Shown here: piece after piece, positions 12,241 to 17,517 of the stretch | Layout: each line of letters starts with the position of its first letter | Numbering within the stretch: the stretch's first letter is position 1 | NCBI RefSeq assembly: GCF_022664535.1 | Contig: NZ_JAKUJY010000005.1 | Coordinates: 62,001-126,000, forward strand | Source: Sphingobium trunci | Lineage (GTDB): Bacteria > Pseudomonadota > Alphaproteobacteria > Sphingomonadales > Sphingomonadaceae | Direction: 5' to 3' | DNA length: 64,000 nt | Notes under the pieces: generated by a model | Databases searched by the model: none | What the model saw: the letters and a program-made list of their open reading frames with translations, nothing else | Told to the model about the DNA's origin: nothing | Position numbers and translations under genes: made by a program

Positions 12241-12409
12241 TGGGTATTTTCCTTCTTTCACGCGGCGCGTCCAGCGTGGACGGTCCGGTTGCTAGAGGGG
12301 CAGGGAAAGAAGGAGTTGGGTGCCGCAAAGCGCCGAAGACCGTCGATTTGCGACTGTAGCAAGGGGGATATGGGGGTTGGGACGGGAAATTGCAAGGCGG
12401 TGGGACGGT

Positions 12410-12604
12410 TCACCAGTTGCCGCCAGCATCCTTGATGGCCTTGAGGAGGGCCTTCTTGCTGGGCGTGCGGCGGGTGCCGCTGTTGCGGGGCAGGTCGGCG
12501 TCGGTGATGCCGAGTTCGGCGCGGCGGCGCGCGAGATCGGCCGCAAAGCTCTTGAAGGCGATGCGGCGGCCGGGCCAGTTTTCAGTTTTGTCAGTTGCGT
12601 ACAT
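12410..12604 (-). CDS. Small basic protein of unknown function
   Basis: 64 residues from the ATG at 12604 (a TTG at 12625 would add 7). Basic and helical, with FAADLARRRAELGITDADLPRNSGTRRTPSKKALLKAIK. This resembles a short conserved sphingomonad protein but no function is known. No obvious Shine-Dalgarno for either start. It marks the edge of the native GC-rich sequence; immediately beyond it the base composition turns AT-rich. Confidence 0.5.
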   Translation of the reverse strand: MYATDKTENWPGRRIAFKSFAADLARRRAELGITDADLPRNSGTRRTPSKKALLKAIKDAGGNW

Positions 12605-12688
12605 CTTGTGCTTATAGCCAATCAAATGAAATAATACGCATTTGTTGTCAATTAATCATTGCTTTTGCGTCCCTAACGAGCTTTCCTA

Positions 12689-13726
12689 ATGAGAAGGGAG
12701 GGCATCAAATTGCCGATTGAAAGGGCTTACGCTTATCTTATTCATCCGGGTAAGGGTGTTTCAGACATGGCAGCCATCTCTGGCAGAGAATTGGCCATTA
12801 GTGATGGTAGCTTATTTGAGATGCTCAATGAGATATTTCAAGGCGACCCTCGTCCCCAAGATTTCGATATCACGTTCAATCCGGATGTGGAGGGTTCGCA
12901 GACGAATAAATGTCGTGATCTTCTGATCGGCTTTCAAGAAAGTCCTACATTGGAACGCGGAGCATTACTTGCTGATCGTCTCCAGAAGGTGACCGATAAC
13001 AGAAGTGGAATTGGCTTGCTCTTTCTTCTTCACGGCAAGCAGGGCTTAAAAGAAAGAGTTGTCGTATCGCGGTTCCCAACGGATCAAGCGATCCTTGCAG
13101 AAGTTGATTCTGATGGCCTGGCGGTCGAATTTCTAGAGCAAGTTTTTATTAAGCGGCTCTCTGCTTACAAGGCGCTGATGTTAGAGCATGGCAGTCCGCG
13201 CGACGGCTTTTGGAGTGGGGTCGCCACGGATCGGCAGGCAGGGCGTTCTGGCGAGCATATTTCAGAATATTGGTTGCGGGATTTCTTAAATGCCGATTTC
13301 ACTGAAACTCCTGCCGCTGGGACAAAGCGTTTAGCTGCTGCTTTGAAAAAGGCAATCAAGATCAATCCTAACCTCGATGTGAAAGGTCAAATAGCTTCTG
13401 CCAGTTCGCTTGCACCCACTGCCTTCGACGGAAAAACAATCAGCATAGATGATTTTTGTAACCACTTTGGCTTTAATCAAAGTGCGAAGGATACGATTAA
13501 AAGTCAGTTATCTAAACCGGGACTATTCTTGAAGAAATTCAAATTTGATCCAGCTGAGTTTAAAAAAATTGCGCCATACAGAACGGTGGAGTTGAATACC
13601 GGTGCTATATTGACTGCACCAAATGACGAGTTCGAAGAGGTTTTTACAGCCGTCTCGTCGGCTGATGGGCAAGTGGAATATACGACGCGGGGCCGCGTAA
13701 ATGACCAGCGGCTAGCAAAGAAATGA
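12689..13726 (+). CDS. Unknown protein, possibly NdpA-like, in an AT-rich two-gene module
   Basis: 345-residue soluble protein with no signal peptide or membrane helix. The N-terminal half (GRELAISDGSLFEMLNEIF, a predicted beta/alpha core ending near residue 155) is followed by a helical middle region (YWLRDFLNADF near 195-205) and a C-terminal segment ending in LTAPNDEFEEVF. The overall order weakly recalls 37-kDa nucleoid-associated (NdpA/YejK-like) proteins seen in accessory regions; I cannot confirm that. The gene is clearly more AT-rich than its neighbours. Its stop overlaps the ATG of the RelA/SpoT-domain gene by 4 nt, implying co-translation. The ATG at 12689 has AAGGGAGG nearby but inside the reading frame; the ATG at 12767 (MAAISGRELAIS) is an alternative start. 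Confidence 0.6.
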   Translation: MRREGIKLPIERAYAYLIHPGKGVSDMAAISGRELAISDGSLFEMLNEIFQGDPRPQDFDITFNPDVEGSQTNKCRDLLIGFQESPTLERGALLADRLQKVTDNRSGIGLLFLLHGKQGLKERVVVSRFPTDQAILAEVDSDGLAVEFLEQVFIKRLSAYKALMLEHGSPRDGFWSGVATDRQAGRSGEHISEYWLRDFLNADFTETPAAGTKRLAAALKKAIKINPNLDVKGQIASASSLAPTAFDGKTISIDDFCNHFGFNQSAKDTIKSQLSKPGLFLKKFKFDPAEFKKIAPYRTVELNTGAILTAPNDEFEEVFTAVSSADGQVEYTTRGRVNDQRLAKK

Positions 13727-14352
13727 CAATAAGCAATGATGTCCGGCCGTCATACGAGGCACGTTATCCAACGCTCGAGTTGGTTGCTCAAGGTCTTGAA
13801 AATCACTTGCGAGATATGTTGAGTGAATTGCCTAGAATTGATGCAATAAATTCACGTGCGAAATCGATTGATAGATTTGTTTTAAAGTCTAAAAAAATAA
13901 ATGATGATGGTAGTTTAAAATACAAAAACCCTCTTTTCCAAATTCAGGATCAAATAGGAGCAAGAATAAACGTATTTTATCTTTCTGACGTCGATGTGGT
14001 GAAAAATCACGTATCTAAGTATATGAAATATATTGAGATACAGGACAAATTTCCAGAAAGTGATTCAGAATTTGGTTATTTCGGATTGCATTTCATTTTT
14101 AAAATTCCAGAAGATGCAATCCCAGATAGTGTAGAGGTGGATTCTGTACCGGAATTTTTTGAACTTCAAATTAAAACACTTTTCCAGCACGCTTGGTCTG
14201 AAGCTCATCACGATCTCGGATATAAATCCGTTCGACCTCTTACCTCGGATGAGAAAAGACGAGTGGCATTCACCGCTGCCCAAGCTTGGGGAGCGGATAA
14301 GATTTTTGAAGAACTAGCGAAGGATTTATGTTCTAACGACAATAGTCCTTAA
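13723..14352 (+). CDS. RelA/SpoT-domain protein, putative small alarmone synthetase
   Basis: 209 residues, synthetase domain only. Synthetase landmarks are present: R45-x-K47-S48 (ATP site), D76 in QDQIGARI (metal ligand position), the G-loop Tyr Y119 in FGYFGLH, E147-Q149-K151-T152 in FELQIKT (catalytic Glu), then HAW-SEAHHDLGYK. There is no HD hydrolase, TGS or ACT domain. Such proteins pyrophosphorylate GDP/GTP, or, in toxSAS/CapRel families, ATP or tRNA 3' ends. Strongly AT-rich with A/T-ending codons (Lys AAA, Ile ATT/ATA), unlike every flanking gene, so recently acquired. It is coupled by ATGA overlap to the preceding gene, and its stop is one base from the convergent uvrA stop. Confidence 0.8.
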   Translation: MTISNDVRPSYEARYPTLELVAQGLENHLRDMLSELPRIDAINSRAKSIDRFVLKSKKINDDGSLKYKNPLFQIQDQIGARINVFYLSDVDVVKNHVSKYMKYIEIQDKFPESDSEFGYFGLHFIFKIPEDAIPDSVEVDSVPEFFELQIKTLFQHAWSEAHHDLGYKSVRPLTSDEKRRVAFTAAQAWGADKIFEELAKDLCSNDNSP

Positions 14353-14353
14353 T

Positions 14354-17269
<2,916 letters not shown>

Positions 17270-17517
17270 GAGGGCGTGTTGTTCCAGATTTGTTCTTCGA
17301 GGGCAAGGCCCGGCCCGGCGCCATGGGCGCGCTGTTGGCGAGGGGCTTCCCGCGTGAGCCACAATTTGGCAATGAAAAGCCGAAAGGCAACGCCGCTCCC
17401 CCGAAAAAAATGCCGCGATGCTCCTCCGGCCGCGCTCCGGTCGTTTCGGTTCCGGCAATTTCCGGCGGGGGCGGAAGGAACTTTACCGCCGGTCCATTGC
17501 GTGCCTATTGCGGTTCC

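Follow-up and report, generated by a model that had tools for sequence, protein, structure and literature searches.

What is the function of two AT-rich genes that end one base from uvrA in Sphingobium trunci? They lie in the window analysed here, a stretch of 64,000 nucleotides within a 4.67-Mb genome, and the window copy is on a 246-kb contig. The first-pass annotation had read the two genes as a candidate toxin-antitoxin or phage-defence module of the toxSAS/CapRel type. That reading was upheld for a conserved mobile module with an NdpA/YejK-like first gene in a defence-type slot, but not for the toxSAS/CapRel branch. The account that we favour, with slightly better than even confidence, is a defence-type module of two genes that moves horizontally; in it, a partner that binds DNA would gate an alarmone-type synthetase.

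Layout, conservation and mobility of the pair

The locus contains the following features.

12292..12621, minus strand: small ORF at the other edge of the slot, matched in several congeners, coding status uncertain
12689..13726, plus strand: gene 1, NA37/YejK-like protein, ORF of 345 aa from ATG 12689
12710, plus strand: alternative, likelier TTG start of gene 1, giving 338 aa (sequence, homologue starts)
12696..12712, plus strand: GGAGG-type ribosome-binding site with TTG 12710, read from the sequence
13723..13726, plus strand: 4-nt ATGA stop/start overlap of gene 1 and gene 2 (ORF coordinates)
13723..14352, plus strand: gene 2, monofunctional RelA/SpoT-type synthetase (SAS), short form, 209 aa (ORF, Pfam, model, tree)
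14354..17458, minus strand: uvrA, convergent, the fixed edge of the slot (ORF list, congener comparison)

The two overlapping reading frames of 345 and 209 residues were confirmed as first described. Gene 1 has a GC content of 46.9%, gene 2 of 37.5% and the two together of 43.4%, against a mean of 64.3% (sd 3.0, minimum 56.4%) in 293 overlapping pair-length stretches of the rest of the window. TTG 12710, located 8 nt after GGAGG and in register with the starts of plasmid homologues, is probably the true start of gene 1. The ATGA overlap would couple the translation of the two genes. The uvrA stop is the complement of 14354-14356, and the single base between it and the end of gene 2 agrees with the earlier description; the real uvrA start is probably further inside than the first TTG from which the listed ORF begins. 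No promoter, terminator or operator-like repeat above chance was found at the pair.

A neighbourhood search across unrelated genomes, proposed as a check in the first-pass annotation, found the pair conserved. A gene 1 relative on the same strand and directly upstream of gene 2 (gap of -200 to 400 nt) was present at 76 of 79 genome loci, a proportion that holds for near relatives because the scan was seeded from an alignment of paired enzymes alone and kept the best 80 of 144 relatives. The same arrangement was observed at 32 of 35 viral-contig loci from IMG/VR. These counts include near-duplicates (e.g. L063/L064, L014/L016, L025/L026), and among the 108 gene 1 copies in the counts there are partial and broken ones and others truncated at a contig end (e.g. 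L070, L074, L078, L105, L114, L128). The 4-nt overlap itself recurs in 58 of the 76 paired genome loci and 19 of the 32 paired viral-contig loci. Gene 1 is absent from six of the 114 gene-2 loci: L113 retains a C-terminal piece of it, L013 and L015 are single-gene enzymes from another branch, and L010, L118 and L124 are short-form synthetases without a recognisable gene 1 upstream, whose partner may have been lost or replaced.

A search starting from gene 1, run on a phylum set of 397 genomes and an order set of 396, detected it in 16 genomes including this one, with gene 2 adjoining in 15 (14 of 15 without this genome); the profile used, A3, was itself built from paired genes. In one of the paired genomes (G583) gene 1 is split over two contigs, and in G385 a weak match to gene 1 stands with no gene 2 beside it. 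The pair is patchy, being present in 11 of the 396 genomes of the order and 6 of the 397 of the phylum. By record titles and tree labels, paired loci occur in nine phyla (Pseudomonadota, Thermodesulfobacteriota, Acidobacteriota, Gemmatimonadota, Planctomycetota, Chloroflexota, Vulcanimicrobiota (Eremiobacterota), Bacteroidota and Spirochaetota), with a remnant in KSB1; since many of these loci are metagenome bins, individual phylum assignments may be wrong. The closest named relatives are from Sphingomonas and Sphingorhabdus.

Gene 1 was absent from all of the 60 other congeners searched at E 0.001, three of which are genomes 60-81% complete. In the synthetase tree (SYNTH), the sphingomonad copies L092, L102 and L109 are placed inside mostly rhizobial branches. 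The plasmids that carry the Rhizobium and Agrobacterium copies were typed as conjugative, and a gene for DarT, a TIR-domain protein or AbiJ-NTD4 lies no more than about 4 kb from the pair. Judged from these sequences, the pair is horizontally mobile. A plain toxin-antitoxin system that stabilises mobile DNA, with gene 1 as antitoxin, gene 2 as toxin and no phage role, would agree with the gene order, the overlap and the copies on conjugative plasmids. In contrast, the window copy sits between etf genes and uvrA on its 246-kb contig, and gene 1 is an NA37 fold of about 340 residues with no Pfam antitoxin domain in it or in its relatives. We consider this explanation unlikely.

Two further observations concern the plasmid copies. 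On three rhizobial plasmids a 160-aa hypothetical gene lies just past the pair on the minus strand (L003, 7707-8189; L004, 7708-8190; L005, 7706-8188); its length and position are equal on all three and the outer neighbours differ. It is a possible third component there. On Rhizobium leguminosarum Vaf10 plasmid unnamed3 (L007), gene 1 reaches the end of the record and gene 2 lies about 1 kb into its start; the pair thus crosses the origin of a circular record, and a gap between the genes is apparent.

The synthetase and its NA37-type partner

Gene 2 matches Pfam RelA_SpoT (4.5e-10, residues 45-169). This is its sole Pfam match up to E 1, so it has no hydrolase domain. Among 95 aligned relatives, K47, K55, D76, R81, Y119, E147 and H163 are invariant and R45 is kept in at least 90%, which bears out the earlier statement that R45/K47, D76, Y119 and E147 are retained without a hydrolase. 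L002, a long-form relative outside the 95-sequence set, aligns without K47. The invariance of the catalytic residues suggests that catalytic activity has been maintained.

The AF2 model of gene 2 (pLDDT 92.6) contains the whole-length SAS fold, with Z 17.2-19.3 over 177-189 residues against RelQ/RelP structures. The best match was RelQ 5dec (Z 19.3, rmsd 2.3, 184 residues aligned), followed by SAS2/RelP 6fgk (Z 17.9, rmsd 2.3, 177 aligned). The toxSAS structures scored lower: CapRel 7ztb Z 12.3 (rmsd 3.4, 174 aligned), Tas1 6ox6 Z 11.0 (rmsd 3.8, 162 aligned) and FaRel2 8pu3 Z 7.5 (rmsd 4.2, 148 aligned). Profile scores gave the same ranking (RelQ 4e-19, RelP 5e-16, CapRel 2e-7). RelQ and RelP make free nucleotides. 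Since they are the closest structures, a free nucleotide is by analogy the likelier product of gene 2 than a modified tRNA.

An accessory stringent-response role would make gene 2 a RelQ-like basal source of (p)ppGpp that works with a nucleoid protein and is tuned to growth rather than defence. The nearest solved structures and best profile matches are in line with this role, and elsewhere in the host a single RelA/SpoT match was found, in a long Rel-like open frame. The patchy distribution, foreign base composition, horizontal transfer and position in a defence slot argue against it, and we regard it as very unlikely. In the phage collection, gene 2 matched four distant records, and the two inspected carry single-gene enzymes.

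The synthetases occur in a short form of about 200-235 aa, to which the window's enzyme belongs, and a long form, about 320-345 aa in length, whose members have a C-terminal extension in common. This extension forms one similarity cluster of 39 rows, duplicates included; single-gene enzymes carry other tails. In the 130-row SYNTH tree, one branch (support 100/95) has 78 short-form rows on one side and another (support 100/99) has 36 long-form rows on one side. Twelve single-gene enzymes, CapRel, the host Rel and two RelQ fragments fall outside both clades. Sixteen loci were omitted by name as duplicates, fragments or broken copies. Each NA37-linked clade is apart from CapRel SJ46, the single toxSAS reference, and membership in the toxSAS/CapRel group, as first proposed, finds no support in the structural ranking or, with this one reference, in the tree; CapRel SJ46 has a very long branch, and because of such branches the deep placement of CapRel, Rel and L143 is unsure. 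A grouping with RelQ, named earlier as a point against the toxin reading, came out mixed: gene 2 is near RelQ in structure but is not nested with the two RelQ fragments in the tree, where RelQ/RelP are represented by these fragments alone.

In six long-form loci the pair has a SLATT/DUF4231 gene as a neighbour. Three were recognised by annotation (L048, L050, L051), and a model built from these found the others (L028, L032, L047). SLATT proteins are predicted membrane effectors of nucleotide-based conflict systems. A signalling role would have gene 2 make a nucleotide messenger that is read by a partner effector, either gene 1 on DNA in the short form or the two-helix SLATT membrane protein in some long forms. 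The adjoining SLATT genes are consistent with this role, and so is the free-nucleotide chemistry of RelQ/RelP. However, no SLATT gene was found in short-form loci among L001-L131, and its position varies (upstream, downstream or convergent), hence it is not a core component. The 1.5-kb flanks of the two locus copies of the window pair (L001/L045) gave no SLATT match either. We regard the signalling role as the main alternative, at a rather low probability.

For gene 1, the match of the window protein to Pfam NA37 (E 0.1, 12.4 bits) is under the gathering score of 24.6 bits. NA37 was matched by 23 of 83 family members up to E 0.01, with a best value of 1.9e-18. For the AF2 model (pLDDT 90.7), Foldseek against the PDB gave a single match at E <=0.001, E. 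coli YejK 9be2 (1.5e-6). Comparison with this structure gave a VIA Z of 13.1 over 294 residues with an rmsd of 10.2, at 10-12% identity; the next row was at Z 5.8. The rmsd suggests that the modelled gene 1 and YejK share domains that are placed differently relative to each other. In two plasmid records, diverged gene 1 relatives are annotated as nucleoid-associated, with RelA/SpoT proteins next to them. The family chain and the predicted fold identify gene 1 as a YejK/NA37-type nucleoid-associated protein, in line with the NdpA-like appearance first noted, and it probably binds DNA.

The identity rests on fold and family chain because profile comparison is weak: against solved structures the gene 1 profile found YejK at E 0.11, the single sequence found nothing meaningful, and alignment to E. 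coli YejK alone had an hhalign probability of 5.6%. Gene 1 also matched a PHROG of unknown function (3e-4). No known antitoxin or immunity type was found in gene 1 (Pfam, NCBIfam, PADLOC) or in its 83 relatives (Pfam); these scans returned NA37 and three single stray matches. With gene 1 as tblastn query at E 0.01, no match was found in the phage collection. NA37 was matched in 73 of 299 genomes of a phylum sample, and this genome gave no match at E 1e-6; weak NA37 genes also occur in gammaproteobacterial-type genomes.

A PADLOC DndF match (0.011) was attributed to chance. Kiwa KwaB (Z 4.0-4.3) and RdgC (Z about 4) scored level with unrelated MHC-type proteins against the gene 1 model, so no link to either is claimed.

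The slot at the 3' end of uvrA

Of 31 genomes of the genus, 30 have a close uvrA, counting this one. In 25 of the 29 other congeners the comparison covered up to 15 kb past uvrA, and it was confined to this genus. The bases directly past the uvrA stop (60 bases, compared by eye) differ in most congeners and agree in G019 and G006. No pair-like DNA was found by blastn at the uvrA end of congeners beyond a 41-bp match of G030 inside gene 2. The window's neighbour etfA is present in the stretch in 17 of the 25 congeners, and the distance from uvrA to the first conserved flank ranges from 0.5 to 5.4 kb (499 bp in G024). The comparison supports the earlier view that the pair was inserted into a conserved neighbourhood.

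The cargo of this slot includes AAA_15 and DUF4435 genes that match PADLOC AriA/AriB of PARIS (G023, G003), AriB being DUF4435-like. It also includes an HSDR_N nuclease (G012), a single-gene RelA/SpoT enzyme (G008), a CapRel-like gene in two ORFs, compared as two pieces (G030), a SEFIR/TIR gene (G006), a reverse transcriptase (G022) and the PADLOC candidate PDC-M53A (G016). A gene in G019 is probably a dCMP deaminase, by motif and set-level match. Defence-type cargo is thus present in at least 8 of the 25 congeners, nine with G019, and 17 of 25 have no firm defence assignment. Non-defence-like cargo comprises F420 cofactor genes, a sulfatase, LysR, DnaJ and a transposase. The best PADLOC values were 1.3e-121 for AriAB, 2.2e-61 for dCTPase, 3.5e-54 for PDC-M53A and 4.2e-53 for PDC-S33; those for AriAB, dCTPase and PDC-S33 are set-level values not tied to named members. 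As a control, 51 window proteins of one genome matched 16 PADLOC families at 1e-5, with a best value of 1.2e-25, nowhere near those of the cargo. The scanned set consisted of 79 greedy ORFs, which may include non-genes, and 25 of these were also scanned individually, most against one library. Judged from these sequence comparisons, the 3' end of uvrA is a variable-cargo slot in this genus that carries defence-type genes, and it is a place to seek further ones. The slot lies at 12300-14352 in the window and in loci L179-L203 of the congeners.

Right after uvrA, two congeners carry genes of 370 aa (L195, 251-1360) and 426 aa (L184, 228-1505) with no Pfam match at E 0.01 or PADLOC match at E 1e-5; they are candidate unknown defence genes.

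At L053, L054, L055 and L210 a related pair lies no more than about 100 nt from the end of uvrA, and at L058, L115 and L060 no more than about 2 kb. This proximity reflects either an old insertion that persists in some lineages or repeated use of the slot.

Proposed function and relation to known systems

The pair joins a DNA-clamp-like protein to an alarmone synthetase, recurs in several phyla and sits in a slot that often carries virus-defence genes in relatives; it therefore probably represents a kind of bacterial immunity that has yet to be characterised. A switchable effector fits best with a conserved DNA-clamp fold, an intact synthetase and a defence slot. In the favoured defence module, gene 1, with its YejK/NA37 fold and probable DNA binding, would be the sensor or regulator, and gene 2, a small alarmone synthetase, would be the effector that transfers pyrophosphate from ATP onto a nucleotide, most likely a guanine or adenine nucleotide and less likely tRNA. 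Translational coupling would ensure that the enzyme is made together with its partner. On DNA, gene 1 would most likely hold the enzyme off, or recruit it. Phage infection, through foreign, replicating or topologically altered DNA or through displacement of gene 1, would switch synthesis on, growth would be arrested and the infection aborted. Against a defence module, the modelled synthetase is structurally closer to RelQ/RelP than to toxSAS, and part of the slot cargo is not defence-like.

A bolder and rather improbable proposal is a widespread, as yet unnamed immunity whose YejK-type DNA clamp would survey DNA and control a small alarmone synthetase that makes an immune second messenger, acting directly in the short form and gating a SLATT membrane effector in the three-gene long form. 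If so, alarmones would join CBASS and other nucleotide-signalling immunity. The link to a nucleoid-protein fold, conserved in nine phyla, suggests that what is sensed is DNA itself, and the pair is a simple system for asking whether the state of DNA triggers alarmone synthesis.

Among known systems, toxSAS (FaRel2/ATfaRel2, FaRel, Tas1/Tis1, CapRel) likewise combine a monofunctional RelA/SpoT synthetase with a regulator, either adjacent or fused. In the available part of one report, CapRel is activated by a phage protein and toxSAS are neutralised by pZFD and Tis1 folds (PMC11782079). In contrast, the partner here has a YejK/NA37 fold, unlike pZFD, Tis1, Panacea and hydrolase partners. The model of gene 2 is nearer to RelQ/RelP than to CapRel, Tas1 or FaRel2, and the NA37-linked enzymes form separate clades. 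As far as the accessible literature goes, toxic alarmone synthetases are held by small dedicated antitoxin folds, unlike the nucleoid-protein fold here.

RelQ/RelP (SAS1/SAS2) resemble gene 2 in length and whole-domain fold. To our knowledge they stand alone, without an NA37 partner, and we know of no case in which they act as toxins. In the tree, supported branches of their own hold the NA37-linked enzymes, with the two RelQ fragments outside.

In PADLOC, no model specific to gene 1 or gene 2 was found, so earlier defence-island surveys may have missed the pair. The RelA/SpoT-type profile PDC-S33 was matched by 94 of 95 gene 2 relatives (best 4.5e-14), and by the window's gene 2 partially and weakly (residues 68-161, 5.7e-7). 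PDC-S33 is not a model of the NA37 pair. It is also matched by a single-gene synthetase at L185, from a congener (4.2e-15). Titles and abstract starts of open-licence papers contained no report of an NA37 and RelA/SpoT operon or of a uvrA defence slot.

DefensePredictor lists a YejK nucleoid-associated domain as one of the domains newly validated against phage in E. coli; the part of that report available to us does not state a partner or give a mechanism (PMC13092281). The pair is therefore not a new category of defence, as far as this part of the report goes. Long-form NA37 and RelA/SpoT operons occur in E. coli, where 4 of 5426 genomes match one long-form DNA query and three of the matching genomes were inspected. 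From what is available of the report, the DefensePredictor system may be the long form of the pair, and in that case the function would be supported and the novelty reduced. NdpA/YejK genes of Pseudomonas phages are also reported, with no synthetase mentioned in the accessible text (PMC10305613). Gene 1 shares the full-length fold of YejK/NdpA (NA37), but at an identity as low as that given above, and the NA37 fold here is tied to a synthetase, which gives YejK-type domains a partner and a testable role.
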